Source: Gigantopelta aegis | Taxonomy: Eukaryota; Mollusca; Gastropoda; Neomphalida; Peltospiridae | Assembly: GCF_016097555.1 (NCBI RefSeq) | Contig: NC_054701.1 | Location: 5,825,093-5,889,092 of the forward strand | Reading direction: 5' to 3' | Length of the DNA stretch: 64,000 nucleotides | Shown here: one piece after another, positions 10,864-60,363 of the stretch | Layout: the number at the start of each line of letters is the position of its first letter | How positions within the stretch are numbered: the stretch's first letter is position 1 | Program-made: the position numbers and the translations under genes | The notes under the pieces: generated by a model | Database searches by the model: none | Told to the model about the DNA's origin: nothing | Seen by the model: only the letters and a program-made list of their open reading frames with translations

Positions 10864-11058
10864 TCTGTGCAATATGTTCATTAAGCTCAAGGGGTGTACC
10901 TGATTCTAATTAATTGAATTATCAATTGAACTGAAATAACATTATCATATAAACATTTGTGAAGGATTTCAGGTGGTAATCGATGACCATCCACATGTTA
11001 GTACACCAACAACTGTAGTTGATGTGATCACATCTACATGTATTAAACCATAGTACTA

Positions 11059-14000: not shown

Positions 14001-15079
14001 ATGAGTACAGATACTGGTCCCAGTGATCATCACCCACTGCCCAAGGTTGTAAAGACAACATAGCAACATGTCCCAGTATGAGTACAGATACTGGTCCCAG
14101 TGATCATCACCCACTGCCCAAGGTTGTAAAGACAACATAGCAACATGTCCCAGTATGAGTACAGATACTGGTCCCAGTGATCATCACCCACTGCCCAAGG
14201 TTGTAAAGACAACATAGCAACATGTCCCAGTATGAGTACAGATACTGGTCCCAGTGATCATCACCCACTGCCCAAGGTTGTAAAGACAACATAGCAACAT
14301 GTCCCAGTATGAGTACAGATACTGGTCCCAGTGATCATCACCCACTGCCCAAGGTTGTAAACACAACATAGCAACATGTCCCAGTATGAGTACAGATACT
14401 GGTCCCAGTGATCATCACCCACTGCCCAAGGTTGTAAACACAACATAGCAACATGTCCCAGTATGAGTACAGATACTGATCCCAGTGATCATCACCCACT
14501 GCCCAAGGTTGTAAACACAACATAGCAACATGTCCCAGTATGAGTACAGATACTGGTCCCAGTGATCATCACCCACTGCCCAAGGTTGTAAACACAACAT
14601 AGCAACATGTCCCAGTATGAGTACAGATACTGGTCCCAGTGATCATCACCCACTGCCCAAGGTTGTAAACACAACATAGCAACATGTCCCAGTATGAGTA
14701 CAGATACTGGTCCCAGTGATCATCACCCACTGCCCAAGGTTGTAAACACAACATAGCAACATGTCCCAGTATGAGTACAGATACTGGTCCCAGTGATCAT
14801 CACCCACTGCCCAAGGTTGTAAACACAACATAGCAACATGTCCCAGTATGAGTACAGATACTGGTCCCAGTGATCATCACCCACTGCCCAAGGTTGTAAA
14901 GACAACATAGCAAAATGTCCCAGTATGAGTACAGATACTGGTCCCAGTGATCATCACCCACTGCCCAAGGTTGTAAAGACAACATAGCAACATGTCCCAG
15001 TATGAGTACAGATACTGGTCCCAGTGATCATCACCCACTGCCCAAGGTTGTAAACACAACATAGCAACATGTCCCAGTA
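11059..15079. repeat. 77-bp satellite, 52 units
   Basis: The motif 'tgtcccagtatgagtacag' recurs with a 77-bp step from 11059 to 15070. The total distance equals 52 x 77 plus 7, and the extra 7 bp is one unit near 12906 in which 'caacatg' is doubled. Each unit contains a 7-bp inverted repeat, CCAGTAT and ATACTGG, separated by 8 bp, and a BclI-type TGATCA. Variants sit at fixed positions: taaaCaca versus taaaGaca, gcaaCatg versus gcaaAatg, and gCaac versus gTaac. Because 77 is not a multiple of three, the repeat gives a ladder of overlapping 61-codon frames that are not genes. Confidence 0.97.
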
Positions 15080-18000
15080 TCGGTCTTTTTTTAAGGTTTC
15101 TATATTTCTCTTTTATGAAAGTGATGTCAGCGTACGAGCTCTCATTCCTCTTGTCTATTGGTTTCCTGCCAATACCTCATCATCAGCAGCTACAGGGCCA
15201 AATATACTGTGAATTTTTTTTTTTGTTGTTGGCTAAAGCAAAAAAATGTGTGGTTTTCCAAAAATACACATTCTGTTGGGTATTTCTATTCGTGGATCAA
15301 AAAGGTAGTATCATAAGTTTGTATTACTAGTTGATTGCACCAGTCCACGAATTACACGAGAATTTGACAACCACAAATATAAGTATGAATAAAGCAGATG
15401 TAATGTTTAGCTTGCATTATTACCTACAATATGGGGACTAACTGGCGAGTGTAGAGTTAGTAGTTAATTGTGTATGAACGACTGAAGTTTTGTTACAGAA
15501 TCACAGGAACAATCAACATTTTTACAACACAGCATGAATGACAGGCAAACTCTGCTCTCCACTAATACTAAGGTAGCTTATTGTTTTTCATGTGTGTGTA
15601 TTAGTTCTGCTAGTGAAATTAATTTTCCAATGTAAGCTAACGGCCAGTCCACATTGAACATTGTGACAGAATCACATATTTAGTGTGACGGAATCACAAG
15701 TGCAATTTCTATATTTTCCCATGTCTAGGTGACCTTCATGTGGCAGACATGTACTTTCTATAATTATAACATAGCAAAGTTAGTTTTGTATTTCAGGTCC
15801 CATAACTTCTTTTCTTCAGTATATTTCTTTCTGTACTTGGCTTGTGTAGTCAACTTCAAATTGCATGTTTTACCTGTGTGGTGGGTGAATACCTGTGACA
15901 TCTCTTTGCTTCTTATAAGGACTATTTTCATGTGCTGTCTGTGAAGACAGTGTTTTTAGTTTTGATTGGGCTGCTGACCATGACATGATCAGCTGATGTT
16001 AGAAGGTAGCCATTCTGCATTTATTGAGTTATATTAGATGGTGGTTTCTTTTGGACTCCTGATTTTGGTGTCCTGCATCTTGACATAAGAATTTATGTAA
16101 AGGTTAGTCTAACTTAATATATTAAACACATATTATATTAATATTTTCTAAATATAATGCAATAAATATAATTAAAGTTATAAACAGTAACATTAGTAAT
16201 GTTATTAGCAATGTTGAAGATAAATTTATAAGTTGGGTATTCTGCTTAATATTTAAAGTAACTTATTTATTATTAAAATTATTCCCTTTATATTATACAT
16301 GCTTCTTTTCCTTTTGAGTATTTTGAATTAATAATTGTAAAAGGGTTTATCTTAAAATATGTATTTTATTTATTTCATTTAAAAGAAGTTATTTTAACTT
16401 CAGGTTCACAGTATATAGTCTATAAGTGACGGTGGATATGGATGAACAGAACATCTTAAACATCACGGGTTTGGTAATGTTATCTCATTTTATGGTATCA
16501 ACTAGTAGTAAAAGTGTCTTTACTATAATTATTGTACATTGACCTATTTGTCATTTTTATTGACCAGAATGTTACATATCATTGTATTATCATGTTTATA
16601 TGTTAATTATGGTAATATTAATTCGTACAGTTTAGATATGCATACAGTTTTGATAGTCGTATGTCATTAATGTTTTAAATGAAGGATTGTATTTATTTTG
16701 TATAATTTTTACCTAAAAAATGTATGTATTTTTTTTAAATACATATAATAATAGTATCATTTTGATATGAATTGTTGTAAATACGTACATTTTCAGAATG
16801 ATAATGGTTATGCTGTATATTTATTATTGTTATTTATTATTGTAGAGATGGATTTCATCTCCGTGATCTACAATAAACTGTGCAAAGCTAAATAAGTGGT
16901 TGTTATCATTTCCTGCACTGAGCACCCTGTTACATTCACACAAGTATATGAAGAAAACTGAAAACTATAACTTTATTCCCAAAATGGCTAATTGAAAAAG
17001 CAAAACGATTGACCAATCATGCAAACAGAAATAAATCATGTAATAATTAAAATTTATTTCATAAAAGCTGCAAAGTAACGATAAAAGTTATAACCGTACA
17101 CAAGTATACTTGTAACTGTTAAGATACATTCATACGGTAAATTTCTGAACGCTAATGTTTAACATATTTATTTTAAGGATTGGTGATTGACAAAATGGGC
17201 ATATATCTGACATTGGTCAACATGGGATCAATAATATGCCTTGCACATAATCTAGTTCATTAACATGCAATGGTATTTAATGTACGTCAGTAACGTTATG
17301 TATTGTTTGGGTGCAAGATTTTCTATTCAGGTACAAATCGGGGTTGGGGGAGGGTTCCAAGGTGCATGCGCCCCCTTTTTGCGTTGTAAAACAATACTAA
17401 AACCCTATTCAAACACCTATTACCATGCTCGGCGCCCCACCCACCCCCTCCCTTTCACCTACCCCTGGATATGCACCTGTTATTTATAGAAATAATTAAA
17501 TAACATATTTATTTTTAATACAAAACTATTAAAGATAGTCTTTATTTGATAATTTATAAAACGAAAATGAATATCATAAATGAGAAATATATGAGACATT
17601 TGGGGATTCTGTTAATTTTTTGTTAAAAACATGCATTTCTACCCTCACCTTCAATTTTAATACTGATGTTTATCAGAAACAACATTTTCCCTTTTTTTTA
17701 TTCCCTTTAATGTGGTCATAAATGAAGAAGGAATATAATTATAATATAAATTTGTAAAAAATATCCCAAAAATCCCCTATTTTATTACTCCCCCCCCCCC
17801 CCCCCCAATAAGCATGCAGTTTTGAGAGCAGATTTTGAATATGTTATGTAGAATGCATATGTGAATACGAACAAAACCCATCCCCAAGCATTTCTATTCT
17901 AATTTGTTTCTTGGGTCAAACCACATATTGTCATGGTGACTTAATAATTGCCATAGTAACCTCAAAGTGTTAATAGAAAAGCCAACAGACTTTGCCGAGT

Positions 18001-18936: not shown

Positions 18937-19262
18937 TGATAGGGGCAGGATGTATACCAGTGGTAAAGCATTCACTTGATGCGTGGTCGGTCCAGGATCG
19001 ATCCCTGCTGGTGGACCCATTGGGCTATTTCATGTTCCAGCCAGTGCTCCACAACTGGTATAACAAAGGCCGTGGTATGTACTATCCTATCTGTGGGATG
19101 GTGCATATAAAAGATCCCTTGCTGCTAATCGAAAAGAGTAGCCCATGAAGTGGCGACAGCGGGTTTCCTCTCTCAATATCTGTGTGGTCCTTAACCATAC
19201 GTCTGACACCACATAACCGTCAATAAAATGTGTTGAGTGTGTCGTTAAATAAAACATTTCTT
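18937..19262 (+). mobile_element. Full-length tRNA-derived SINE, family A (tail subtype 1)
   Basis: The head contains an A-box-like 'ataccagtggtaaagc' and a B-box-like GGATCGATCC, as in RNA polymerase III promoters of tRNA-derived SINEs. The body runs through 'gggctatttcatgttccagccag', 'gccgtggtatgtactatcc', 'ataaaagatcccttgctgctaatcgaaaagag', 'gcgacagcgggtttcctctc' to 'gtgtcgttaaataaaacatttctttc'. This is the most complete copy in the window and serves as the reference for the others. Confidence 0.93.
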
Positions 19263-19723
19263 TCTTTCTTTTTTTTGTAAATGATATTTGTCAAACCTGT
19301 GGTAATGTTAAATAGCATTTTAAAAAACATTTGATAAAATACTGAAGTTGAAAATTTTAGCAGTGGTAATACATACATTGCAGTGCCGAAGTTTTGTTTT
19401 GTATAATGGAATATTTCAGTTTCAGAATTTTTTTTATATATCATTTAGTTTTAAAGCGTTAATAAACGTTTTGGAATACATACAATTACACGTTTATAAC
19501 TATTTTATAGATGAATCCAAATAATTGAAAATATTTTATGTAATTTATATATTAAAATCACTAAAGCAGAAAATGTTACCCCCCCCCCCCCCAAATGAAA
19601 ATATACTTTTTTTTTTTTTTAAATTGTTTTTAGAAATTGTATTTCATTTCCCTATTGCTGTTGAAGAATACTCTCCTAACATCAAATAAATGTGTACAGT
19701 AACATGTTGTAATCATTCTAAAC
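19263..19723. other. AT-rich intergenic DNA
   Basis: No gene is seen. Low-complexity runs of C (about 19580-19592) and T (about 19608-19620) are present. Confidence 0.5.
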
Positions 19724-19970: not shown

Positions 19971-21464
19971 CTCTTCAAAAGAAGAAACGCAAAACCACAT
20001 TGTCGTAACATTTGGAGAATTGATTTAATTATTGAATGGTGAGTCCGATAATTACCAAATGTTGCAGGATTGTTCACAATTCACTCTAGTCCATTGTGAG
20101 TAAGTGATAGGACACACCACCAAGGTCAAGGTCATCTGGAGTCAATACCGGATGTGGCCTCCGCGTGTGTTGACAACTGCCTGGCACCGCCTGCCCATTG
20201 AAGCAACCAGAGTACGGATGACGTCCCGGGGGATGGTGGCCCACTCGGCCTGCAAGGCTGCTGCCAGCTCGGGCAGGGTCTGGGGCTGTGGTTGTCGCTG
20301 TCGGAGGCGTCGTTCCAACTCGTCCCATAGATGCTCATTTGGGTTCAAATCCGGTGATGTCGATGGCCAAGGAAGGACATTAATGTTGTTGTTCTGTAGG
20401 AAAGCCGTTGTGAGACGTGCTGTGTGAGGCCTGGCGTTGTCATGTTGGAACACTGCGTTGGCGTTGGCCATAACTGGAACGATGTGTGGCCGGAGGATCT
20501 GGTCAATGTAGCCCTGTGCATTCAGGTTGCCCTGCACGTGGACCAGGTCAGTTCTGCCAGTGTGTGAGATGGCTGCCCACACCATGACACTACCCCCGCC
20601 GAATCTGTCCACTTCCTGCACGCAGTTTGCCGCATAACGTTCACCACGACGCCTATACACGCGACATCTTCCACCATGACGTCGGAGCAGAAATCGGGAC
20701 TCGTCACTGAACCACACCTGTCTCCATCGCAGTTGAGGCCATTGTCGATGAATCTGGCACCACTGCAGTCGGAGTCGACGGTGTTGTGGTGTTAAGATGA
20801 CACCTCGAACTGGACGTCTGGCACAAATTCCTACCTCACGTAGGCGGTTCCGTACGGTCTGGTCGGATATCCTGCGCAAACCTGGTATTGCTGTGGCTGT
20901 GGAGGTGGCAGTAGTCAATCGTTCCCGAAGGTGGTGTACCCGGATGTAGCGGTCCTGCCCGGGGGTAGTGACCCGTGGTCGACCGGATCTAGGGAGGTCA
21001 CGTGTTGATCCATGTTGCTGGTAACGGTCCCACAGTCTGGAGATGATGCTTGGGGACACATGGAATGCCCTGGCAACGGCCGTTCTGGATTCGCCTGCGT
21101 CTAGTCGGTCGATGGCATTGTTTCTCTGCGGTTCACTGAGACGTGGCATGTCCTGGATTGTCAACTGTCGGCCAGATACAGAGGCCAGGCAAGCGAACAC
21201 CCTGTACTTTTATACTGTCGGTGTTTATGTTGCACGTGCAGACAACGCACGTGCAGTGGTAACATGGTTTGCACGTGGCTGCATTTTTGCGAATATTCAC
21301 ATTTTGGAACTTTATTGTACAGTAGCTGCGTTTTATCGAATGTAACCATGGGAATGTGTTTGGGACATGCAATGACCTTATATTCACAAAGCATGAACCG
21401 GTAGGAAATATAAAATCGGAGTTATAACCCATTTGTACCCTTTTGCGTTTCTTTTTTTGAAGAG
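19971..21464 (-). mobile_element. Complete Tc1-like DNA transposon
   Basis: The element is 1494 bp, bounded by TA dinucleotides at 19969-19970 and 21465-21466. Its termini are inverted repeats: CTCTTCAAAAGAAGAAACGC on the left and the same with a single G-to-A change when the right end is read in reverse, followed by AAAA. It encodes one uninterrupted transposase on the minus strand. TA targets, about 24-bp inverted repeats and one intronless gene are diagnostic of the Tc1/mariner superfamily. Intact coding and near-identical ends suggest a young insertion. It lies in the tail of a family B SINE. Confidence 0.95.
20142..21149 (-). CDS. Tc1-family transposase, DD34E, intact
   Basis: The 335-residue protein would bind the element's terminal repeats and catalyse cut-and-paste transposition into TA sites in the nucleus. 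Its N-terminus MPRLSEPQRNNAIDRLDAG begins a helix-turn-helix paired-like domain, with a second around 'GLRRISDQTVRNRL'. The catalytic triad is visible: Asp in FSDESRF, Asp in QHDNARPHTA, and Glu in SPDLNPNEHLWDELERR, with 34 residues between the last two, as in Tc1. The frame stays open back to an ATG at 21200 (17 residues more), but the family start is the inner Met chosen here. There is no stop or frameshift. Whether it is active cannot be told from sequence. Confidence 0.95.
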   Translation of the reverse strand: MPRLSEPQRNNAIDRLDAGESRTAVARAFHVSPSIISRLWDRYQQHGSTRDLPRSGRPRVTTPGQDRYIRVHHLRERLTTATSTATAIPGLRRISDQTVRNRLREVGICARRPVRGVILTPQHRRLRLQWCQIHRQWPQLRWRQVWFSDESRFLLRRHGGRCRVYRRRGERYAANCVQEVDRFGGGSVMVWAAISHTGRTDLVHVQGNLNAQGYIDQILRPHIVPVMANANAVFQHDNARPHTARLTTAFLQNNNINVLPWPSTSPDLNPNEHLWDELERRLRQRQPQPQTLPELAAALQAEWATIPRDVIRTLVASMGRRCQAVVNTRGGHIRY

Positions 21465-22380: not shown

Positions 22381-22617
22381 TATCAATACAGAGTAACCTA
22401 GATGACCGTCATCAATACGGAGCAGCCTAGATGACCGTCATCAATACGGAGCAGCCTAGATGACCGTCATCAATACGGAGCAGCCTAGATGACCGTCATC
22501 AATACGGAGCAGCCTAGATGACCGTCATCAATACGGAGCAGCCTAGATGACCGTCATCAATACGGAGCAGCCTAGATGACCGTCATCAATACGGAGCAGC
22601 CTAGATGACTGTCATAC
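22381..22617. repeat. 29-bp satellite, about 8 units (left block)
   Basis: Tandem units read 'cctagatgaccgtcatcaat' plus 'acggagcag'. They are almost identical. The same 29-bp satellite recurs as a larger block at 27624-29190, on the other side of the LTR-gag unit. Confidence 0.95.
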
Positions 22618-23039
22618 AAAAGTATCAGACTGTGTGTCCAGATTTTTGTAGGATTATGTGTATCCAAGAGTTTAAAACTGTATTCCTATTTTTTTTGTAG
22701 GATTGTATATGCAAGTTTAAATTGTGTCTCATTTTTGTAGGATTGTATATGCAAGAGTTTAAGACTGTGTGTCCAGATTTCTTGTAGGATTGTGTATCCA
22801 AGAGTTTAAGACTGTGTCCAGATTTTTTGTAGGATTATGTGTATGCAAGAGTTTAAACTGTGTTCAGATTTTTGTAGGAATGTGTATCCAAGGGTATAGG
22901 ATTGTGTGTCCATATTTGTTTTAGGACTGTGTATCCCAGTGATTAGAAGTTTGTTTCACAGACCTTATGGTATTGCTAGAGTAGCTGACATTTTATGTTT
23001 TGTATTTATTATATCTCATTTCGGGGACGAAATGAAAGC
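22618..23039. repeat. Degenerate ~45-bp repeats before the LTR
   Basis: Loose repeats of 'gtgtgtccagatttttgtag', 'gattgtgtatccaagagttt' occupy 22618-22930. The same sequence occurs at 27530-27623, directly before the right-hand block of the 29-bp satellite, so both blocks share a border sequence. From about 23020 comes 'tttcggggacgaaatgaaag', which resembles the 3' end of Ty3/gypsy pol next to a polypurine tract. Confidence 0.7.
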
Positions 23040-25090: not shown

Positions 25091-26470
25091 ATGATGTTAA
25101 GAAATAGAGAATTACCTCCAGTTAGTTTCTTAAGTGAAAGATATAGGAGTTCTTTGGGGAGGGAAGATGATGAGTTAGATGAAAGAGGTCCTATATTCAC
25201 CTGTAATTCAAATACTAGTGATCAAAATGTTCAAGTAACATCTAGCACAAATACACCCATATGTAGTGCACCTGTAGATTTGATGACTGGTAGTAACAGA
25301 AATCATATGGGTAGACGTTTCAGTGATAGTATACTAGACACTGTAAACCATTCTGCTAGTTTATATCCAACATTTACTGGTAGTGGTTCCAATTCTGGGG
25401 TAAATGTAAGTCCATCTTTACCAAACATGGGTGGTCAGCATAGATATAGTGAAAGCGATTCTGATGCAGTCCGTGGAAGATCATGTGTTTACCCAACAGC
25501 AAGTTCAGCTCGTTACAATGTTCGCTCAAATGCTGATTATATTCCTAATTCGTTTGTGCCTGGTGTGAATGGGATTCGGAGCAGATATAACACAAACCCT
25601 CACCCAGATGAACCAAAACCACGACTCCCATTTTTCAATGGAAAAGGAGATTTCGAGTCTTTCTGGATTCAGTTTCAAATGCTATCACGTCGATTTCAAT
25701 GGGATGAAGAGAGGCAGTGTGAGCAGTTGTTTTTCTGTCTTAGCGATGATGCTCTTAGTTTTGCAGCTCAGTTACCCAGGGATACCAGATATGACATTTT
25801 CGCATTATATTCGTGTGTGAAATAACACTTTGGTGACAATGTACTACCCGAAACTCACAGGTCAAATCTACATAACATACATAGAAATCAAAGGGAGACA
25901 ATTCAAGATTTTGCTTCAAGAGTTAGTGCGTTAATGGAAAAAGCCTATCCAGGATTGAAAAATAGCAACACTAAACTATTTACTGAACTGTCTATAGAAC
26001 ACCTGGTGAGAGGACTTTCAGATCACAGTGTAGCCTATGATGTTCTCACCAAGAAACCACAAACTTTGGATGAAGCAATCAACATGATCAACTGGCACGA
26101 ATGCTGTAAAAATAATATTACAAGGAAAACTAGCGTTAGGGGAGTAGATATTGAGAGAGATACTACAGAACATGACATTGAGGTAAATCGAGTGAACATG
26201 AACAAATTTGTTACAGAGGAAAGACTTCTGCAGTTTGGACGCGAGTTGAAAGACTCTATAATTAAGGAAATGAAACAACTTATTTCCGAAAGTTTGAAAA
26301 GGAATTTCCAAATAGACTCAAATAATAAGAAACTGTGTTTTTCCTGTAAAGAGGAGGGTCATTTTGCTAAATATTGTCCTTATCTTAGAGAAGAAAACAA
26401 AGCCGTGAAGAAGTGGAATAAACATGAAGATGATTCCAGGTCAGAGCAAAACTTAATTCATCTAGATTGA
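25091..26470 (+). pseudogene. gag: Ty3/gypsy gag, one in-frame stop
   Basis: The frame of 459 codons plus terminator encodes the structural protein that packages element RNA into cytoplasmic particles. It is broken by one TAA at 25823-25825; the codons before and after are in the same frame. The first 165 residues are Ser/Asn-rich. A capsid-like retrotransposon gag domain follows, including 'FFNGKGDFESFWIQF' and, after the stop, 'ETIQDFASRVSALMEKAYPG'. A CCHC zinc knuckle near the C-terminus (CFSCKEEGHFAKYC, spacing C-2-C-4-H-4-C) confirms the family. It starts 55 bp after the primer site. No protease, reverse transcriptase or integrase motif follows, so the copy is non-autonomous. Confidence 0.85.
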
Positions 26471-27490: not shown

Positions 27491-27623
27491 TTGTTTTGTT
27501 GTTGTTGTAATATTGTAGACTATATCCAAGAGTATAGGACTGTGTGTCCAGATTTTTTGTAAGATTGTGTATACAAAAGTATCAGACTGTGTGTCCAGAT
27601 TTTTGTAGGATTATGTGTATCCA

Positions 27624-29190
27624 AGAGTACGGAGTAACCTAGATGACCGTCATCAATACGGAGTAACCTAGATGACCGTCATCAATAATGAATGACCTAG
27701 ATGACCGTCATCAATACGGAGTAACCTAGATGACCATCATCAATACGGAGTAACCTAGATGACCGTCATCAATACGGAGTAACATAGATGACTGTCATCA
27801 ATACGGAATAACCAAGATGACAGTCGTGAATATGGAGTAACCTAGAAGAAATGTTTTATTTAACGATGCACTCAACACATTTTATTTACGGTTATATGGT
27901 GTCAGACATATGGTTAAGGACCACACAGATTTTGAGAGGAAACCCGCTGTCGCCACTACATGGGCTACTCTTCCGATTAGCAGCAAGGGATCTTTTATTC
28001 GCGCTTCCCACAGGCAGGATAGCACAAACCATGGCCTTTGTTGAACCAGTTATGGATCACTGGTCGGTGCAAGTGGTTTACACCTACCCATTGAGCCTTG
28101 CGGATTGAGTAACCTAGATGACCGTCATCAATACGGAGTAACCTAGATGACCGTCATCAATACGGAGTAACCTAGACGACCGTCATCAATACATAGTACC
28201 TAGATGACCGTCATCAATATAGAGCAGCCTAGATGACTGTCATCAATACGGAGTAACCTAGATGACTGTCTTCAATACATAGTACCTAGATGACCGTCAT
28301 CAATATAGAGCAGCCTAGATGACTGTCATCAATACGGAGTAACCTAGACGACCGTCATCAATACAGAGTACCTAGATGACCGTCATCAATATAGAGCAGC
28401 CTAGATGACTGTCATCAATACGGAGTAACCTAGACGACCGTCATCAATACGGAGTAACCTAGACGACCGTCATCAATACAGAGTACCTAGATGACTGTCA
28501 TCAATACGGAGTAACCTAGATGACTGTCTTCAATACGGAGTAACCTAGATGACCTTCATCAATACGGAGTAACCTAGATGACTGTCTTCAATACGGAGTA
28601 ACCTAGATGACCTTCATCAATACGGAGTAACCTAGATGACTGTCTTCAATACGGAGTAACCTAGATGACCGTCATCAATACGGAGTAACCTAGATGACCG
28701 TCATCAATATAGAGCAGCCTAGATGACTGTCATCAATACGGAGTAACCTAGATGACTGTCTTCAATACGGAGTAACCTAGATGACCTTCATCAATACGGA
28801 GTAACCTAGATGACTGTCTTCAATACGGAGTAACCTAGATGACCTTCATCAATACGGAGTAACCTAGATGACTGTCTTCAATACGGAGTAACCTAGATGA
28901 CCTTCATCAATACGGAGTAACCTAGATGACTGTCTTCAATACGGAGTAACCTAGATGACCTTCATCAATACGGAGTAACCTAGATGACCGTCTTCAATAC
29001 GGAGTAACCTAGATGACCGTCTTCAATACGGAATAACCTAGATGACCGTCATCAATACGGAGTAACCTAGATGACCGTCATCAATACGGAGTAACCTTGA
29101 TGACCGTCATAAATATGGAGTAACCTAGATGACGGTCATCAATACGGAGTAACTTATATGACTGTCATCAATACAGAGTAACTTAGATTG
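27624..29190. repeat. 29-bp satellite, about 45 units (right block), interrupted by a SINE
   Basis: Units of 'gtaacctagatgaccgtcat' plus 'caatacgga' fill 27624-27847 and 28108-29190. Variants alternate in a higher-order pattern around 28500-28980, where 'gactgtcttcaat' and 'gaccttcatcaat' units alternate as a 58-bp dimer. A SINE interrupts the block at 27848-28107. The last units (29110-29190) are degraded. Confidence 0.95.
27848..28107 (-). mobile_element. SINE with family A tail (subtype 1) inside the 29-bp satellite, minus strand
   Basis: It reads from the tail, 'aaatgttttatttaacgatg', through 'ggttaaggaccacacag', 'ctgtcgccactacatgggc' and 'caaaccatggcctttgttg' to 'cccattgagccttgcgg'. The tRNA-like head is absent. 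The matching body at 43437-43818 shows that this subtype carries a family B head. Satellite units continue on both sides. Confidence 0.9.
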
Positions 29191-31933: not shown

Positions 31934-32182
31934 CTGCAATTCTGGTAACTTTTCCAGATGTTCTAATCAAATCTCCAGGCTTCATGTTCTGTGATGCAAC
32001 AATGTAGCGTTTGTTTTCACCCCCAGCTACCACTGCTATATCGGCGGTCCGACATGGGTCGTACCGCACGGCCATGACACGCTCCACAAGAGGTGGCCCA
32101 TTGGCAGGAGCTGAGCGCCGGAAGTCAACCATGCGGAATCGTCGTTTGTGACCACCACCAACGCCGTGAGTCCATATCCGAC
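31934..32182 (-). CDS. MRPL2: MRPL2 exon 3 (RNA-binding core)
   Basis: The exon lies between a 'gttatgttgtag' acceptor and a 'GCAG/gtaaac' donor and is 249 bp, phases 1 and 1. It holds the strongest family signatures: the glycine-rich GVGGGHKRRFRMVDFRR, which matches the bacterial uL2 GGGHK loop that contacts large-subunit rRNA, and VRYDPCRTADIAVVAGGE, matching YDPNRSANIALV. A second block, RYIVASQNMKPGD, follows. The adjoining intron 3 shows only the foldback element; 31103-31933 is otherwise plain AT-rich DNA. Confidence 0.97.
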
Positions 32183-32423: not shown

Positions 32424-33652
32424 CAGGGTTGAAAATTCACATGAAAACCATGGTCGCCAGCAGAGCCAGTTGAAGAAAAAGCTTACTGGCCCTTCTCAAA
32501 TTCAACTAGCCCTCCAATTATCACATTGAAATTTAACTGCAGAGCCAAAATCAAAACTAGAATATTCTTTGTTAACTAATAACCATGTCCTCATCATATA
32601 TAGTCTGTTTGTTTCAAAAAGAAACCGATGAATTGGCATATAACTTCATAATGAATAGTTAAAGTACTAGTCTGGGTGGCAGTGCTCTATGTTGCAATGC
32701 AAGAGGGATGAAATATACTTTGTGGCGATGCAAAAGATGGTAAAATCTCCAGTAAAGGATTTCCTCGGGAGTGGCTGTTCGCCTGTAGACGAAGCATGCA
32801 TGTGTACATTTAATTTGGATATTGCAAATGCTACAGTAGTAGGCTACTAATAAAATAAACATTGAAAGAAAAATAAATTAAAAAAAAAACCCACCACAAA
32901 AAACATGATGTACTTTTTTCTGCTTTTAATTAATTTTTTCTAGTGCCCCAAAATAATATATGATGTACGTAGTTATTGTATTACAAAGCATAAAAAACGT
33001 ACTTATTGTTTACTACAGTAATATTTGGATGGTCATGTCATTATGTAAGTCTTGGTGTCACTTTAGATCCGGTCTGTTCTTATTTCATAGAAATCGCTTG
33101 AACGTAAAACAATACCGACAACAATAATCAATTAACTGACCTATGGAATAAGCCCTGTAGTAATGGAAAATGTCATTATTATTTTTATGTGTGTGCATGC
33201 GCTCACATTAGTATGAGTTAATACTACAAGAAAATTTTCGATTTTGTTCCAGAATAATGTAAGCTAATTAAATATGATTCCTTTTTACTACATAATTATG
33301 GCGTATCCAATCCATTCCAATAAGCCTACAACTTCCATGCAATGTCTTCAATACGTTTTAAGCTCTATTCTTAAAAAGACCAGGCCCAAGCCACAGAAGC
33401 CGAGTCTGGGGCTGTCAAAATAAAGAGCATGTTCTGTTTTCTGCTGCCATATCTGTAGTTCATGCCAACACAGATGTGGGGTGTTTTGTCACATTCGATT
33501 CAGTTTCAGTGTCTTTCTGTTTGAACTGGTACCATACTCGCCAGACCCTAAAATCGATGGTGGCCCAACAGACTACCTTTGTAAAATTCTTAGTCGCCCT
33601 TACCCAATAAAGGTCGCCACGGGTGACCAGGCAACTGCTAATTTTCAACCTG
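32424..33652. mobile_element. hAT-like non-autonomous element in MRPL2 intron 2
   Basis: The termini CAGGGTTGAAAATTC and AATTTTCAACCTG are inverted repeats of hAT style. A second, shorter copy in the same orientation lies at 59478-60363; both share 'catggtcgccagcag', 'caactagccctccaatta' and 'gcccaacagactac/tat'. This copy has an extra block of about 300 bp at 32630-32940. A reverse-strand frame here contains peptide-like 'CGLGLV', as in the other copy, but it is broken. The target duplication is unclear (gtagt on both sides). Confidence 0.7.
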
Positions 33653-35250: not shown

Positions 35251-36087
35251 TGTATTTACATGTACTCAGATCACTACTCTGACGAACAGCGCCCTCCTGT
35301 CTTGGGACATGGTAAGGGACATAGGGTGTATTTACTCAGATCACTACTCTGACGAACAGCGTCCTCCTGACTTGGAATATGGTAAGGGACGTAGGGTGTA
35401 TTTACTCAGATCACTACTCTGACGAACAGCGTCCTCCTGACTTGGAATATGGTAAGGGACGTAGGGTGTATTTACTCAGATCACTACTCTGACAAACAGC
35501 GTCCTCCTGACTTGGAATATGGTAAGGGACGTAGGGTGTATTTACTCAGATCACTACTCTGACGAACAGCGTCCTCCTGACTTGGAATATGGTAAGGGAC
35601 GTAGGGTGCATTTACTCAGATCACTACTCTGACGAACTGCACCCTCCTGACTTGGGACATGGTAAGGGACGTAGGGTGTATTTACTCAGATCACTACTCT
35701 GACGATCTGCACCCTCCTGACTTGGGACATGGTAAGGGACGTAGGGTGTATTTACTCAGATCACTACTCTGACAAACAGCGCCCTCCTGACTTGGAATAT
35801 GGTAAGGGATGTAGGGTGTATTTACTCAGATCACTACTCTGATGAACTGCACCCTCCTGTCTTGGGATATGGTAAGGGACATAGGGTGCATTTACTCAGA
35901 TCAATACTCTGATAAACTTACCATCATGACCACGCCCTCCTGTCTTGGGATATGGTAAGGGACGTAGGGTGTATTTACTCAGATCAATACTCTGATAAAT
36001 TTACCATCATGACCACGCCCTCCTGTCTTGGGATATGGTAAGGGACGTAGGGTGTATTTACTCAGATCAATACTCTGATAAACTTAC
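35251..36087. repeat. Satellite made of MRPL2 exon 2 fragments (70- and 83-bp units)
   Basis: About eleven tandem units lie immediately downstream of MRPL2 exon 2 in gene orientation. On the minus strand each unit includes the end of that exon, TACACCCTACGTCCCTTACC...CCCAAGACAGGAGGG. The two units nearest the exon (step 83 bp) keep the complete exon end and the GATG/gtaag donor, giving copy donors at 36005 and 35922. The other nine have a 70-bp step: a 13-bp loss removes the donor, and the coding part has drifted. Neither 83 nor 70 is a multiple of three, so read-through shifts the frame. Confidence 0.93.
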
Positions 36088-36209
36088 CATCATGACCACG
36101 CCCTCCTGTCTTGGGATATGGTAAGGGACGTAGGGTGTATTTACTCGGGTCAATTCCCTGCTTGATAAACTTCATCTTTCCACAGGTAGCTGATGAAACA
36201 CTAAACTGT
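36088..36209 (-). CDS. MRPL2: MRPL2 exon 2
   Basis: The exon is bounded by a 'ttttgtttctag' acceptor and a GATG/gtaag donor and is 122 bp, phases 2 and 1. It encodes RQFSVSSATCGKMKFIKQG followed by the conserved KYTLRPLPYPKTGGRGHDG, whose second half matches the KTGGRDHTG segment of other uL2m proteins. RQF/S fits an R-3-type mitochondrial processing site. It is distinguished from the copied fragments downstream by having the only acceptor and the unique first 60 bp. Confidence 0.95.
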
Positions 36210-39510: not shown

Positions 39511-41067
39511 ATGTCCAATATGATAATATCCTCAACAAAAACATTCATTTAGCCCATTTTGACCGTCTAGTTACAAAATTAATTTTATCATATTTTTTTT
39601 TAAACATTTGCGTTTCTTTTACTGTTTAGTATGTATTAGTGTTTTTACTGTTTAGTATAATATATTAGTGTTTTTACTGTTTAGTATAATATATTAGTGT
39701 TTTCACTGTTTAGTATAATATATTAGTGTTTTTACTGTTTAGTATAATATATTAGTGTTTTTACTGTTTAGTATAATATATTAGTGTTTTTACTGTTTAG
39801 TATGTGTTAGTGTTTTTACTGTTTAGTATAATATATTAGTGTTTTTACTGTTTAGTATATATTAGTGTTTTTACTGTTTAGTATGTATTAGTGTTTTTAC
39901 TGTTTAGTATGTATTAGTGTTTTTACTGTTTAGTATAATATATTAGTGTTTTCACTGTTTAGTATATATTAGTGTTTTTACTGTTTAGTATATATTAGTG
40001 TTTTTACTGTTTAGTATAATATATTAGTGTTTTTACTGTTTAGTATGTATTAGTGTTTTTACTGTTTAGTATATATTAGTGTTTTTACTGTTTAGTATAA
40101 TATATTAGTGTTTTTACTGTTTAGTATGTATTAGTGTTTTTACTGTTTAGTATGTATTAGTGTTTTTACGGTTTAGTATGTATTAGTGTTTTTACGGTTT
40201 AGTATAATATATTAGTGTTTTTACTGTTTAGTATAATATATTAGTGTTTTTACTGTTTAGTATAATATATTAGTGTTTTTACTGTTTAGTATAATATATT
40301 AGTGTTTTTACGGTTTAGTATAATATATTAGTGTTTTTACTGTTTAGTATGTATTAGTGTTTTTACTGTTTAGTATAATATATTAGTGTTTTTACTGTTT
40401 AGTATATATTAGTGTTTTTACTGTTTAGTATAATATATTAGTGTTTTTACTGTGTAGTATGTATTAGTTTTTTCACTGTTTAGTATAATATATTAGTGTT
40501 TTTACTGTTTAGTATAATATATTAGTGTTTTTACTGTTTAGTATGTATTAGTGTTTTCACTGTTTAGTATGCATTAGTGTTTTCACTGTTTAGTATAATA
40601 TATTAGTGTTTTCACTGTTTAGTATATATTAGTGTTTTCACTGTTTAGTATAATATATTAGTGTTTTCACTGTTTAGTATATATTAGTGTTTTCACTGTT
40701 TAGTATAATATATTAGTGTTTTCATTGTTTAGTATAATATATTAGTGTTTTTACTGTTTAGTATGTATTAGTGTTTTTACTGTTTAGTATGTATTAGTGT
40801 TTTCACTGTTTAGTATAATATATTAGTGTTTTCACTGTTTAGTATAATATATTAGTGTTTTCACTGTTTAGTATACATTAGTGTTTTCACTGTTTAGTAT
40901 ACATTAGTGTTTTCAATGTTTAGTATACATTAGTGTTTTCACTGTTTAGTATATATTAGTGTTTTTTGTTTCAATTGCTAGAAACTTGCATTTGAAGCCA
41001 TCCAAATTCCAGGCTCAGAACAGTGTATTAAATGAGTTTATAAATGAACTGAAGCCCTTACCTTGTA
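39511..41067. repeat. Large tandem duplication, copy 1, with 17-29-bp minisatellite
   Basis: Starts 'atgataatatcctcaacaaa', followed by 'gcccattttgaccgtctag'. The core (39610-40965) is a minisatellite of 'tttttactgtttagtataat' plus 'atattagtg', with shorter units lacking one 'ataat' block. It ends 'gaactgaagcccttacc'. That last string is the reverse complement of the MRPL2 exon 1 donor region, so this copy carries a duplicate of the donor flank inside the intron. Confidence 0.92.
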
Positions 41068-41076
41068 TGATATTAT

Positions 41077-42361
41077 GATAATATCCTCAACAAAAACATT
41101 CATTTAGCCCATTTTGACCGTCTAGTTACAAAATTAATTTTATCATTTTTTTTTTTAAACATTTGCGTTTCTTTTACTGTTTAGTATATATTAGTGTTTT
41201 TACTGTTTAGTATAATATATTAGTGTTTTTACTGTTTAGTATGTATTAGTGTTTTTACTGTTTAGTATGTATTAGTGTTTTTACGGTTTAGTATAATATA
41301 TTAGTGTTTTTACTGTTTAGTATATATTAGTGTTTTTACTGTTTAGTATGTATTAGTGTTTTTACGGTTTAGTATAATATATTAGTGTTTTCACTGTTTA
41401 GTATATATTAGTGTTTTTACTGTTTAGTATACATTAGTGTTTTTACTGTTTAGTATAATATATTAGTGTTTTTACTGTTTAGTATGTATTAGTGTTTTTA
41501 CTGTTTAGTATAATATATTAATGTGTTTACTGTTTAGTATAATATATTAATGTTTTTACTGTTTAGTATAATATATTAGTGTTTTTACTGTGTAGTATGT
41601 ATTAGTGTTTTCACTGTTTAGTATAATATATTAGTGTTTTTACTGTTTAGTATGTATTAGTGTTTTTACTGTTTAGTATGTATTAGTGTTTTTACGGTTT
41701 AGTATAATATATTAGTGTTTTTACTGTTTAGTATATATTAGTGTTTTTACTGTTTAGTATGTATTAGTGTTTTTACGGTTTAGTATAATATATTAGTGTT
41801 TTCACTGTTTAGTATATATTAGTGTTTTTACTGTTTAGTATACATTAGTGTTTTTACTGTTTAGTATAATATATTAGTGTTTTTACTGTTTAGTATGTAT
41901 TAGTGTTTTTACTGTTTAGTATAATATATTAATGTGTTTACTGTTTAGTATAATATATTAATGTTTTTACTGTTTAGTATAATATATTAGTGTTTTTACT
42001 GTGTAGTATGTATTAGTGTTTTCACTGTTTAGTATAATATATTAGTGTTTTTACTGTTTAGTATGTATTAGTCTTTTTACTGTTTAGTATGTATTAGTGT
42101 TTTCACTGTTTAGTATGATATATTAGTGTTTTCACTGTTTAGTATAATATATTAGTGTTTTCACTGTTTAGTATACATTAGTGTTTTCACTGTTTAGTAT
42201 ACATTAGTGTTTTCAATGTTTAGTATACATTAGTGTTTTCACTGTTTAGTATATATTAGTGTTTTTTGTTTCAATTGCTAGAAACTTGCATTTGAAGCCA
42301 TCCAAATTCCAGGCTCAGAACAGTGTATTAAATGAGTTTATAAATGAACTGAAGCCCTTAC
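41077..42361. repeat. Large tandem duplication, copy 2, adjoining MRPL2 exon 1
   Basis: Repeats the layout of copy 1: the same 'atgataatatcctcaacaaa' start, minisatellite (41170-42266), the same 'ttgtttcaattgctagaaac' segment, and 'gaactgaagcccttacc' at the end. In this copy the last bases are the true splice donor of MRPL2 exon 1. The minisatellite here itself contains an internal duplication: 41240-41660 resembles 41670-42090. Confidence 0.92.
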
Positions 42362-42499: not shown

Positions 42500-42967
42500 T
42501 TACAGTTGTTTCCTGAAAAGAAAAACATAGAAGAGAACTAACAACTGGATCACCAGGTCATAAGCTAGAACTGATAAAGTAGAAGTGACTTCTCCCTTCC
42601 CAAGAGAAAGGGTAAAAGTTTGATAAAAATAGGCCAAAATTATTATTAATACATGGAACAAGGGGAATCCAGTGCTCACCAATTTGCTAATTTGTATCAT
42701 TACATACAAAGTGGCTCCCTTCCCAGGAGAAAGGGTAAAATTTTGATAAAAATAGGCCAAAATTATTATTAATACACAGAATAAGGGGAATCCAGTGCTC
42801 ACCAATTTGCTAATTTGTATCATTACATACAAAATGGCTACAACATTTAGAGTTTGGCCAATAAAATATTCCTTAAATAAACCACATTTTAATAATTTTC
42901 CAGGAAATTCTGTATGTAAAAGTTGGCGATACCAAAAAGCATTCAGTGTGAGCCCTGGGAATGCCAA
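42500..42967 (-). other. Repeat with a 155-codon frame upstream of MRPL2
   Basis: The frame contains a 42-residue direct repeat (LYVMIQISKLVSTGFPLF and following, twice), the result of a tandem duplication of about 120 bp at 42596-42838. The product would be strongly hydrophobic with Phe, Ile and Leu. I regard it as a transcribed-looking dispersed repeat rather than a host gene, because the duplication is equally conserved at silent positions and no domain is recognised. It occupies the region where the MRPL2 promoter should be. Confidence 0.4.
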
Positions 42968-43137: not shown

Positions 43138-44393
43138 CAGTGCTCATTTTTAAGGATTTTGGTTGCTTGCCCGGAGGGCAAGTATGGGTTCACATTGAGG
43201 TTACCCCTCCAAAGATTTGGTTGCCCTGATTTTAGCCGTGTTTTGAAAATAGAGTTATATTTATATTTCAATAAAACAGCAACTAACAGGTTTGGAATTA
43301 ATATGTTGTCACTGTAAAATGTAATATATACTGTCTGACAATAAAATAATCACTTTTTAATATTTTAAAGGTTTTGTATTAGAAATTTAAAATTTGGAAA
43401 CGCCACATTTTTGGGGAAAAAAAAGAAAAAAAGAAGAAAGAAATGTTTTATTTAACGACGCACTCAACACATTTTATTTACGGTTATATGGCACCAGACA
43501 TATGGTTAAGGACCACACAGATTTTGAGAGGAAACCCGCTGTCGCCACTACATGGGCTACTCTTCCAATTAGCAGCAAGGGATCTTTTATTTGCACTTCC
43601 CACAGGCAGGATAGCACAAACCATGGCCTTTGTTGAACCAGTTATGGATCACTGGTCGGTGCAAGTGGTTTACACCTACCCATTGAGCCTTGCGGAGCAC
43701 TCACTCAGGGTTTGGAGTCGGTATCTGGATTAAAAATCCCATGCCTCAACTGGGATCCGAACACAGTACCTACCAGCCTGTAGACCGATGGCCTGCCACG
43801 ACGCCACCGAGGCCAGTCATTTTTTGGGAATGATAAAGACCAGAATAAAATTGATACACACTTCAGTTGGGTTTTTTCTTCATTTTTTTGTAAGTCGAAA
43901 TGCGAATTTAAAAAAGGAGAGATAAGAGGTGGATGAATCCAAAATGAAGTCTGATAAAACACAGCACACTGGGTACTGAAACATCAAAAGCAATGTCAAC
44001 AACACCAGAAACAGTCAACATTAGAAACGGTCAACGTCAGAAGCAGTGATTTGGTGATATGTCGGCTATTTTCCAATCGAATGCACTCTATGTTCCAATC
44101 GAACGCACTGGAATGTTTCCTATTCGGAATACTTCAGCCAATTACGATTTTTCATGATGTCTCACAGAATCAGCCGAGGAGTTCCGAGTGGCAAACAAAC
44201 CCACGTGATTTCGACTGATTGACCGATGCTTTAAATAACGACAGTTTAAAAGCGATTGTGGGCAAGGAAACTGCACATTATTATGGGACATAACTCGCCG
44301 TTTAAAAATGTTAGTCGTCCAATGGGCAACTAGTATCATAGAATTAAGTTGCCCGACTGAATATTAGGTCATCACAGTAAAAATTGAGCACTG
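43138..44393. mobile_element. hAT-like non-autonomous element with 6-bp flanking duplication, split by a SINE
   Basis: The ends CAGTGCTCATTTTTA and TAAAAATTGAGCACTG are inverted repeats, and CCTAAG lies directly outside both. The interior starts 'ggttgcttgcccggagggc' and contains matching 'gggcaactag' / 'gttgcccgactg' near the right end. A chimeric SINE is inserted at 43437-43818. No transposase remains. Confidence 0.75.
43437..43818 (-). mobile_element. Chimeric SINE: family B head joined to family A body
   Basis: Read on the minus strand, the head is CTGGCCTCGGTGGCGTCGTGG, then 'catcggtctacaggctggtag' and a B box 'gttcggatccc', matching family B (53385-53612). The rest, from 'caaggctcaatggg' to 'gttaaataaaacatttc', is the family A body and tail (18937). 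The junction is near 43690-43700. The 27848 copy has the same body without the head. Confidence 0.85.
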
Positions 44394-47052: not shown

Positions 47053-48254
47053 GAGCGCTTTGATTGAAGTCGACGACACATGATTGTGAACTTTCTTATT
47101 TGCTTGGTACACAATAAATATTGCATATCTTACCATAACTTGATGTTAAATTAATTTTAGGAAAATATAACATTTAAAAACACGCACAAAAAAAACCCAC
47201 AACACTATAACTGTTAAAATAAAATACATTTGTAATACTCAAAAAAATAATAATAATAATGTCAACTTTAAAAAAAGTCTTTACATTGTAGATTTTCCAG
47301 CTTGGTAAAAGCAGAAATGTCTTGGACGAGTTTATTAATTTTTGTAGAAATATGTAAAAGAACATTACTTAAATAGTTGTTGTATAAAGATGACGAATGC
47401 GCTAGAAAGCAAAGTGGCCGAAATTTAGTTTTTCTACTTAACAAAAATCACAATAATAAATGTTGAGAAAAAAGACCGTGTTCTTGGTAGCAGATTCTAC
47501 AGAAAGATGGTCTTAGTTGTATTGCAAAATGACCAAACTATATTAAAAAAGTTATATTATTTGTTAAATGAAACATATCCAATAAATTAAAAGATATGCA
47601 ATATTTATTTTGTACGAAGCCGTAACGAAGCTTTGTTTCTGTCATTCTGTCATAGGGCCTACCAAGTTGTGTTTTGGAATATTTCTCAATTATATATTAA
47701 TCAAAAGAGGTTCAATGATGAAATGGTTTCGTCTATATACATCTGTATTACGTACCAAATAAAACAATCCCGCACTCAGTATTGTGTACCCCCTTCCCCC
47801 TGTACGCATGGCATATGCAATGGGCAAGATCCACCAACACCACCCCACCCCACCCAACCCTCTGTATGCATACACATCCAATAACAATGAAATACATTGA
47901 CAATAATATATTTGAAATTTCGTTTCACAACTGCAAATGGCGCTGATCTCGTTTTGCATTGAACACTCGTAATTTTCAAATGAGGCACGAGATATCCAAC
48001 ACGCATGAAAAAATCAAATGCAAATACATGTAGTAAAATGCACTTAGTAACTGTTTTTGTTTGCTGCCCCCACCCACCCCACCCTCCATTACGCACTTTG
48101 TATGCATTGGACTGGTCCCCTCCTGCTATCTGTGTACGTAGGCCTACTATATGGACGACTCCTTTCATTGAGCCAATGTGCATTATGACGTCGTTCTAAG
48201 CCTAAATTTTGAAGGACTTGTGCAAAATGTAATAAGCTTCCATTTTTCTTTCAG
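47053..48254. other. Rest of the hAT transposase intron
   Basis: AT-rich DNA without an obvious exon. C-rich low-complexity patches occur at about 47785-47865 and 48065-48090. A pyrimidine-rich 'tttttctttcag' acceptor stands at its right end (48254). Confidence 0.5.
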
Positions 48255-48270
48255 TTCACATAACTGCCAC

Positions 48271-50596
48271 AAGTTCAGACAAGGTTTGCCAGATATCTAA
48301 CCCAGAATTGTCCACTTCCAATGCAGACACCTGCAATGCTGTTTTGGCTAGTTCCATGCAAATCCATTTACATGACCCTGCAGATTACAGAGTTGAAAAT
48401 CGCTCTGACGAAGACATCAAAGCTGTGTTTTTATCTGATGACGCAAAATTTACCCCCAGTGAAACGTTTAGCTTCCATGTCACTTCATGTAGAAAGTATA
48501 ACATTTCATGGGAACATAATCGACCATGGCTTAGATATAGTTTGAAAAATGATGCCGCCTTCTGCTCATATTGTTTGTGTTTCGGGACTGTGGCTGACTC
48601 GCCATTTGTAAAGAACGGCTATAAAAACTGGAAGAAAGCGGTTGGAGTGAAATACAGCTATCTGGACAAGCATGCGAAGTCTGTCGATCATGTATCTGCC
48701 AGTGAAAAGGTACATAATTTCCTATATTCGAGGCAGAATGTGGGTACTGATATCTACGCCAAAATGGATAAAGCCACGAAAATAGACCAGATACGAACCA
48801 AGAGAGGGATTCTGTCTATAATTGACATAATTATTTCATTGGGACAGAGAGGAATTTCGTTAAGAGGAAATTGGTGTAAGGATGAACAAAGAGAAGATGG
48901 GAACTTTGCTTTCTTCACCTTCTGGAAAGCAAAATTCGACAAAGATTCGTCAGAACACCTTATGCAAGCGAACAAAGTTGCAAAATATACTTCGCCCAAA
49001 ATTCAAAATGAAATAATTTTGATAATTGAAAAGAAAATCAGAGATAAAATAATTAATTCAATTCCCCAATACTGGAGCATACTAGCAGATGAAACGCAAG
49101 ATTGTGCTGCTTGTGAGCAAGTAAGTCTGTGCATTCGGTTCGTCAAGGACAACACAATTCACGAGGAGTTCCTTGGTTTTCAGGCTATTGAAAAAATGGA
49201 TGCACAAACCATAGCGGATACATTAGTGAACAGCGTTACAGGTTGGGGACTATGCATGGATGATTTAGTAGGGCAAGGATATGACGGGGCTTCAGTGATG
49301 AGCTCTTGCAAGAATGGGGTGCAGGCTAAAATTCAACAACAGTTTCCAAACGCTACATACGTTCATTGCCGATCACATGTTTTGGCTTTGGTAATTGCTA
49401 AAGGTTGTAAACAAGTTCCAGAAATCCAGAATCTATTTGACAACGTCGAGAAACTGACATGGTTTTTAGGCGGTAGTGCTAAGAGGAAGGCCTTGTTTAA
49501 AAGCTCAAGCGACTCTCATGAACTTGGTGATTTTCTTATTGAGCAAGCTGACCATGATGAAGAATTTGACATGTCGAACACGGCACTTATAAGAGGAGTA
49601 AACAAAAAATGTGTTCCAAAGTTTTGCTCAACTCGTTGGACTGCAAGGATTGATACTCTCTCGGCTCTTCTTCCAAAGTACAAGACGGTTTTGGAAACAC
49701 TTGAAAAGATTCAAGAAGCCAGTATTGGAGACTCGAAAAGAGATGCGGGATCTTATGCTCGACTGCTAACCGATCCACAGTTTCTTGTCTCACTTGTAGT
49801 GGCTCAGTTCATCTTGAGCTATTTCGCGTCCGTGACCAAAAGTCTACAAGCTGTCAACTGTGATCTAGGCTCAGCCTATCGTGACATCCACTTGTCCAAA
49901 GAAACTGTGGCTAAGGCACGCTGTGAATCAACATGGGATAAACTTTATGAACGAATCGAGTCCATCTGCAGTGAAATTGATGTGACTATAGTCAAGCCAA
50001 GGACCACAAAAATTCAACGCCACAGATCGAATGCCGGCGCAGATGTTTCACAAAGTGCCAAAGATTACTTCAGGGTGAACGTATTTTATCCGTTTATTGA
50101 TCATCTTCTTCAAGATCTCGACTCCAGGTTTTCCGACCAGCATAGTAACCTAGTGGCTGCTGAAGCACTCATACCCGTGAATTTGGAACATCTTACACCA
50201 ACATGCATGGCCAAAATAAATGAATACTATTCAAAATGTCTGAAACGGGGAGAGTATCTTCAAGTTGAAGTAGAGAAGTGGAAACACTTGTTCCAACATA
50301 CTCCAGTAGAGTCCAGACCAGCGGATGGTTGTACCACTTTGGCAGCCTGCAACAAAGTGTATTTCCCAGCAATTCACCGAATTCTGGTGATATTCCTCAC
50401 TACTCCTGTTGGCAGTGTGGCATGTGAAAGATCATTTTCAGCACTAAGGCGCTTGAAATTGTGGACCAGAGCAAGTATGGCCCATGATCGCCTTAGTGGA
50501 CTAGCTATGCTTCTTTGCCATCGGAACACACCATACATTCCTTGCCCAGAACAGATATACTCTACAAAATGTAACTGGAGACAATTAGCTCATTAA
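48271..50596 (+). CDS. hAT-family transposase (DUF4371 / hAT dimerisation type), main exon
   Basis: About 775 codons without interruption encode a nuclear DNA transposase related to P52rIPK/ZMYM-like proteins. An N-terminal TTF-type zinc-binding region shows C-R-K and AFCSYCLCFG with a following YLDKHAKSVDH. The DUF4371/RNase-H-like core has ADETQD (first catalytic Asp region), GQGYDGASVMSS (second) and VHCRSHVLALV. The hAT dimerisation region near the C-terminus has TTPVGSVACERSFSALRRLK, whose Glu is the likely third catalytic residue. Two acceptors are possible. One after 48254 has the better pyrimidine tract but is out of phase with exon 1; one after 'cacaag' at 48270 is in phase. There is no ATG at the left edge, so the start lies in exon 1. 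A poly(A) signal follows at 50640. Confidence 0.9.
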
Positions 50597-59477: not shown

Positions 59478-60363
59478 CAGGGTTGAAACCTAACATGGTC
59501 GCCAGCAGGGGCAATTGAAGAAAAATCTTAATGGCCCATCTCAAATTCAACTAGCCCTCCAATTATTACATTGAAATTTAAACGCACAGCCAAAATCAAA
59601 ACTAGAATGTTCTTTGTTGAATAATAACCATGTGTTTACCGTATATAGTCCATTTGTGTCAAAAGGTTATGTCATGTAAGTCTTGGTGTCAGTACTTTAG
59701 ATCGTATATGTTCTTATTTCATGCAAATCACTTAAACTTAAAACAATACAAATAACGACAATCAATTACTTGGTAACTGTCCTTTGGAATAATCCCTGTA
59801 GTTATGGAAAATCACATTGTTATTGTTATATGCGGGTATGCACTCACATTAGTGTGAGTTAAAACTACAGGATAGATTTTGATTTTGTTCCAGAATAATA
59901 TACCTGTAAGCTAATTAAATATGATTTATTTTTACCATAACACTGAATAACAATAGTCAAAAAGTATGTCTACTTGATAATTATCATGTATCCAGTCCAT
60001 TCCAATAGGCCAGTGACTTCCAGATTTAAACAAATACTTGCAGTGTCTGCAATATGTTTTTAGCTTTATATTTCCCGGCCCAAAACCACAGAAGCTGAGT
60101 CTGGGTCTGGTGAGTCTGCCGCTGTTAAAATATAGAGCATATTCAAGGTCTTTTGCTGCCAGATGTGTAGTTAGCGCCAGCACAGATGCAGTGTGTTTTG
60201 TCACATTCAGTTCAGTTTCATTGCATTTCTATTTTAACTGGTTCCATGTTCGCCAGACCCTAAAATTGATGGTCGCCCAACAGACTATCTTTATAAAATT
60301 CTTAGTCACCCTTAGCCACTAAAGGTTGCGATGGTGACCGGGTGACTGCTAATTTTCAACCTT
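59478..60363. mobile_element. hAT-like non-autonomous element, second copy of the 32424 family
   Basis: Starts CAGGGTTGAAACC and ends with AATTTTCAACCTT. A GTACAAG string flanks both sides, giving a 7-8 bp target duplication. It aligns along its length with 32424-33652 but lacks the extra 300-bp block. On the minus strand a 90-codon frame at 59932-60204 encodes EYALYFNSGRLTRPRLSFCG and CRHCKYLFKSG; the other copy has a broken version, so this may be a remnant of a captured or ancestral coding exon. Confidence 0.75.

Follow-up and report, generated by a model that had tools for sequence, protein, structure and literature searches.

A single-locus minisatellite in MRPL2 of Gigantopelta aegis, probably grown from the end of a coding exon and its splice donor

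How does a tandem array come to contain the splice donor of a gene, and what might the copied donors mean for splicing? This question is raised by MRPL2, the gene for mitoribosomal protein uL2m, in the gastropod Gigantopelta aegis. We analyzed a window of 64,000 nucleotides (contig NC_054701.1, positions 5,825,093 to 5,889,092), in which a tandem array takes in the 3′ end of MRPL2 exon 2 and runs into intron 2. The array is a single-locus minisatellite, and we consider it probable that it grew stepwise from the 3′ end of this exon and is near-neutral.

The gene lies on the minus strand. Its four exons in the gene model (exon 1, 42453-42362; exon 2, 36209-36088, 122 bp; exon 3, 32182-31934; exon 4, 30881-30469) join into a frame of 291 amino acids, which contains both ribosomal L2 domains (PF00181 and PF03947) and has mitoribosomal uL2m as its top match in a structure search (7.1e-85). 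Among the matches listed for the protein (120 of 1559), the closest named relatives are molluscs. Protein matches continue across the exon 2/exon 3 joint, GGRGHDG|RIWTHGVGGGHK, which is continuous with uL2m of other animals. Therefore the splice from 36088 to 32182 was taken as the one that makes the protein, on the basis of the protein joint. MRPL2 is single copy in the assembly (1,149,253,464 bases, 5216 contigs): the six matches correspond to the four exons and two array copies, and no retrocopy recording the donor used was found among them.

Read directly from the letters, the array consists of 12 units on the minus strand (36146-35268, about 0.9 kb), three of 83 bp and nine of 70 bp when counted from GAGTA at 36146. 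Tandem Repeats Finder returned the same two periods. Unit 1 (36146-36064) comprises the last 59 bp of exon 2 and the first 24 bp of intron 2, and the authentic donor, ATG|GTAAGT with last exon base 36088 as placed by the protein joint, lies inside it. Unit 2 (36063-35981, last exon-like base 36005) is identical to unit 1 at 82 of 83 positions, the single difference falling on donor position +5 (GTAAAT). Unit 3 (35980-35898, last exon-like base 35922) is identical at 83/83, with its donor copy intact. Units 4–12 (35897-35268) each lack 13 bp in the region of the exon end and donor, and the donor is absent from the exon-end position in all nine, as the initial annotation of this DNA had stated. 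The exon end with GT is kept in two of the 11 further units, and one of these two donors is consensus. Equal length and shared neighboring letters suggest that the 13-bp deficit goes back to one shared loss, although the aligner puts the gap at differing places among the 70-bp units. One loss followed by spread accounts for all nine donor-less units, and selection is therefore not needed to explain them.

The array had initially been called a satellite. Satellite DNA is distinguished by long arrays and/or many loci. This array spans only about 0.9 kb, and its 1101-bp region matched its own locus alone in the 1.15-Gb assembly, in a search that skips simple repeats and very common words. Elsewhere in the window the array matched only short pieces or simple sequence, none longer than 44 bp. 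Units of 83 and 70 bp lie within the range of minisatellites (tandem units of some 10–100 bp), and the array is a minisatellite rather than a satellite.

We then compared the units with each other and with the exon. The 46-bp body that is free of gaps in all units has seven variable sites, six of them at codon positions 1–2, and units 1–3 share one state at all seven. With so few sites, this indicates only that the copies seem to change like unconstrained DNA while the exon holds the shared state. Fixed differences between the exon and the 70-bp units are restricted to one tail site, with none in the body. Taken together, the comparison supports derivation of the array from the end of exon 2 and its donor. 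The 70-bp units differ from unit 1 by 6.0% on average over 61 ungapped sites. Units 2 and 3 show one difference from it in 166 bp (one and zero per 83 bp), where the age of the 70-bp units would lead one to expect about 10 (P ~5e-4, Poisson model). The donor-bearing 83-bp copies thus look like the youngest, or like copies that the exon has converted not long ago. The order is the reverse of the one first proposed, in which amplification came first and a donor-less unit spread afterwards. At one site (AAGACAGG) units 4 and 12, which form the ends of the 70-bp block, retain the exon state, which is altered in the seven inner units; turnover of an array from within would give this pattern. This is a hint only, because the total body distance of units 4 and 12 (two) is tied with that of units 6 and 7.

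The initial annotation derived the units from the last ~60 bp of exon 2 plus intron flank. The exonic part holds, as described above, at 59 bp. The flank, on the other hand, probably comes from the exon itself. The start of intron 2, GTAAGTTTATCAGAGTATTGATCT (36087-36064), aligns in register and with a 4-bp gap to the exon 2 stretch AAGTTTATCAAGCAGGGAATTGACCC (36172-36147; codons K F I K Q G I D and part of P), which lies 87 bp, or 29 codons, upstream and is its presumed source. With the match anchored at its end, shuffling the exon piece 100,000 times reached its score 7 times, as did 30 of 125,754 window 30-mers, many of which overlap or come from one tandem array. With GTAAGT fixed, the score was reached once in 100,000 shuffles and three times in 50,000 random draws; none of 79 other 24-mers starting with GTAAG reached it. 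The score of intron 2 is 19, compared with −6 for intron 1 and −9 for intron 3. In 24 uL2m relatives hand-picked from the 120 listed, KFIKQGI occurs exactly in eight and in a close form in seven, with neither in nine; these codons therefore predate the array in part of the group. We consider it likely, if not proven, that the 24-bp flank is a decayed copy of these codons, and the founding unit would therefore have been almost all exon. For an exon-derived tail, the 87-bp step, a multiple of three, would have kept the first duplication in frame, and only the subsequent steps of 83 and 70 bp shift the reading frame. A 29-residue in-frame duplication was not found in other uL2m proteins among the 120 listed of 1559. 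The sole second match over our self-set threshold in that search, P0006, proved to be an unrelated stretch.

Possible traces of the founding event may also persist at the other end of the array. Just past the last unit, 35251-35232 agrees at 17 of 20 positions with a seam of exon end, GT and exon start, including the letters that the 83-bp unit has lost. Under strict scoring 7/3000 shuffles and none of the 3131 window pieces reached the match to the seam, compared with 114/3000 and 51/3131 for a dimer of the 83-bp unit and 151/3000 and 68/3131 for a dimer of the 70-bp unit. The surrounding region (approximately 35262-35217, minus strand) is suggestive of a decayed 13th unit or an old exon-end/exon-start seam, with mixed controls.

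Next, we ranked the donors using a weight matrix that serves to order sites only. The real donor at 36088 and the copy at 35922 are identical and both score 6.40, and the copy at 36005 (ATG|GTAAAT) scores 2.59. Both near copies had been reported as consensus donors, which is correct for 35922 alone; the donor at 36005 is weakened, not dead. For comparison, the donors of exon 1 and exon 3 score 5.19 and 3.30, the best donor-like site within the 70-bp units 0.2, and GT sites of intron 2 outside the array up to 4.93. The exon 3 acceptor at 32182 would pair with any of the donors. Extension of exon 2 to either 36005 or 35922 reads GHDGKFIRVLI and then runs into an early stop. A short exon favors its nearest donor, and extended mRNAs that contain stops are subject to nonsense-mediated decay. 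The donor at 36088 would accordingly make the protein, as the one nearest to the acceptor of short exon 2, and occasional splicing from 36005 or 35922 would bring in the early stop and probably lead to decay of the mRNA. The array is thus probably near neutral in function.

These observations fit the following history, the order of which we infer. A tandem duplication would have fused the donor GTAAGT, at its AAGT, with the AAGT of the exon codons AAG TTT, 87 bp upstream and in frame, and created an exon-GT-exon seam, the site of the present working donor. The exon-derived start of the intron would then have decayed and lost 4 bp. Units bounded by the leftover repeat ATTGAYCYGAGTA may have multiplied next; one copy would have dropped 13 bp together with its donor, and the resulting 70-bp form would have spread. 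Most recently, the intact 83-bp unit adjoining the exon would have been copied twice more, giving two new donors, one of them already weakened at +5. Local tandem arrays cover 25.5% of the window in 26 merged stretches, and in sequence so rich in them an array over an exon end needs no special cause.

Several results weigh against parts of this history. Six of the nine relatives with neither KFIKQGI nor a close form are named molluscs. Without anchoring, the tail match was reached by 5 to 19 of 5000 shuffles and by 11 or 12 of 5987 window pieces, and with ATTGATCT at the breakpoint fixed in addition to the donor by 515/100,000 shuffles and 191/50,000 draws. At the distal flank, lax scoring made the match to the seam weak (108/3000 shuffles, 38/3131 pieces), and a 70-bp dimer fitted about equally (90/3000 and 75/3131; the 83-bp dimer gave 579/3000 and 264/3131). 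An ungapped comparison over 28 bases gave 17/28 for the flank and 18, 17, 17, 17 and 17 for five unrelated places, and a competing gapped alignment of the flank to the 70-bp unit was reached by 1 of 2000 shuffles for a 63-bp piece and 7 of 1000 for a 168-bp piece. Gene conversion could also produce the apparent youth of units 2 and 3. Finally, the score at 36005 is little below that of the real exon 3 donor.

The breakpoint control bears directly on a different origin, in which the flank is native intron and the array began with a single 83-bp duplication between the chance-alike repeats ATTGACCCGAGTA in the exon and ATTGATCTGAGTA in the intron. Minisatellites are known to arise by duplication between short repeats that lie apart, which speaks for this origin. 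So do the breakpoint letters, which agree at 11 of 13 positions, and the frequency with which shuffles reach the tail score once the donor and ATTGATCT are fixed. A native intron nevertheless leaves AAGTTTATCA, found in register 87 bp apart, to chance, as well as the strict-scoring match of the flank to the seam, and we regard it as unlikely. The copies at the exon could also be a product of assembly, namely a mis-joined or duplicated stretch that added two 83-bp copies; they are almost identical to unit 1, and the sequence comes from one assembly. Unit 2 nonetheless carries a private difference, the array was found at one locus only, and the presence in this window of an array of 52 copies at 98% suggests a long-read assembly, all of which makes an artefact highly improbable.

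The remaining alternatives assign the donors a role. The initial annotation placed the donor-bearing copies first and let donor-less units spread under selection against competing donors. Loss of the donor from every distal unit, the early stop behind both copy donors and the fact that the sole change in units 2 and 3 weakens a donor speak for such selection. Yet the donor-bearing copies look youngest and the donor needs to have been lost in a single event only. The +5 change is one observation, and with 18 of the 166 copy positions lying in a donor we estimate that chance would place it there about one time in ten. We consider this history very unlikely. Use of a copy donor might instead work as a regulated switch, in which a stop-containing mRNA adjusts how much MRPL2 is made. 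The second donor at 35922, identical to the first, preceded by the same 59 bp and followed by the early stop, would suit such a device. A stable RNA structure was not found over exon 2 and units 1–3 (z = −0.01), though, and the copies seem of too recent origin to be an established device, so that we give this idea hardly any credence. Stepwise, near-neutral growth from the exon end is the reading that we retain.

If growth from the exon end is taken further, the end of the exon might act as a ratchet. Each further duplication of its last 83–87 bp would move earlier copies into the intron, to decay there and be stripped of the donor. Positions +3 to +6 of the working donor, together with the other first bases of the intron, would then descend from codons, and the intron would grow from its own exon. 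We put this forward tentatively and consider it less likely than not. The array suggests that the first bases of an intron can be recycled exon, and within it donor-bearing and donor-less copies can be told apart by age. Provided that the gene is expressed as anticipated, the locus is also a natural test of donor choice by the spliceosome where identical donors follow the same 59 bp, a weakened copy included.

Other repeats in the window were recorded as well. Near MRPL2 exon 1 there are two further tandem arrays, at 39617-42266 (96 bp downstream) and 42592-42839 (139 bp upstream), and a dispersed repeat within intron 2 (33031-33651) is 73% alike to one at 59665-60362. A 77-bp array at 11058-15080 holds 52 copies at 98%. 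A family of 29-bp repeats occupies three separate arrays (22382-22615, 27628-27846 and 28107-29188), two of which adjoin a 47-bp family (22627-22936 and 27523-27629). The gap between two of the 29-bp arrays is filled by one copy of a dispersed repeat (27846-28104, 43438-43696 and 19041-19275; copies 97% and ~89% alike). Transposon-related frames comprise a 786-residue stop-to-stop frame with hAT-type domains (DUF4371 and Dimer_Tnp_hAT; 48236-50593, plus strand), a 355-residue open frame for a Tc1/mariner-like transposase (DDE_3 and HTH_Tnp_Tc3_2; 20145-21209, minus strand) and a gag-like open frame (25826-26467, plus strand) with a CCHC zinc knuckle marginally over the cut-off. Rfam families at the gathering threshold and tRNAs were not found in the 64-kb window.

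How does the MRPL2 array compare with known systems? MRPL2 was not named in the literature searched, and we make no claim that the array is unreported. A survey of human genes lists 792 introns in 262 tandem repeats (PMC10809524). In earthworm metallothionein, the parts consulted of the report on intronic minisatellites contain no exon-derived unit (PMC12783039). In potato RdRp, a tandem duplication over an exon boundary likewise turned exonic GTAAG letters into a splice donor, as far as the consulted text describes it, but this was a single acceptor-side duplication that made a new intron, with no array (PMC4974935). Intron gain by the Rogers model, described there as duplication of an exonic segment with AGGT, was considered for MRPL2 and rejected: the seam reads ATG|GTAAGT, and the acceptor at 32182 lies outside the array. 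Judging by its title and a citing sentence, the IFI6 (6-16) minisatellite (Turri 1995) has downstream repeat units that serve as donors, as might the MRPL2 copies; the copy donors of IFI6, in contrast, make known isoforms.

The closest parallels are two human variable number tandem repeats (VNTRs) that include an exon's donor, and they answer the statement of the initial annotation that it knew of no described satellite of such origin. By its name, c.1444_1467+7(16_21), the 31-bp CBS VNTR has a unit of exon bases c.1444-1467 and seven intron bases, that is, exon end plus donor, in 16–21 units; it differs from the MRPL2 array in its shorter unit and in being polymorphic, and a two-age structure is not mentioned in the portion of PMC2630376 consulted. 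The VNTR in intron 18 of ABCA7 resembles the MRPL2 array in directly adjoining an exon and taking in its splice donor. According to the parts consulted of PMC5954066, its 25-bp unit, described as intronic, begins with the GT of the donor and its length varies. One unit is retained via a further donor at 2 ± 1%, which breaks the frame, and a block of translation raises the level of transcripts that contain stops (PMC5954066). We would expect use of a further donor in MRPL2 to be of the same order. The MRPL2 units differ from those of ABCA7 in their 83 or 70 bp, their 59 bp of coding exon and the loss of the donor in nine of the 11 further units. The ABCA7 VNTR has been linked to disease risk (PMC5954066), and a case from an invertebrate is useful for understanding how arrays of this type begin. 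The MRPL2 array thus belongs to a known kind, the minisatellite or VNTR that includes an exon's splice donor, as in ABCA7 and CBS, and extends it to an invertebrate, with a long stretch of coding sequence in the unit, copies of two ages in one array and a probable exon origin of the intron start.
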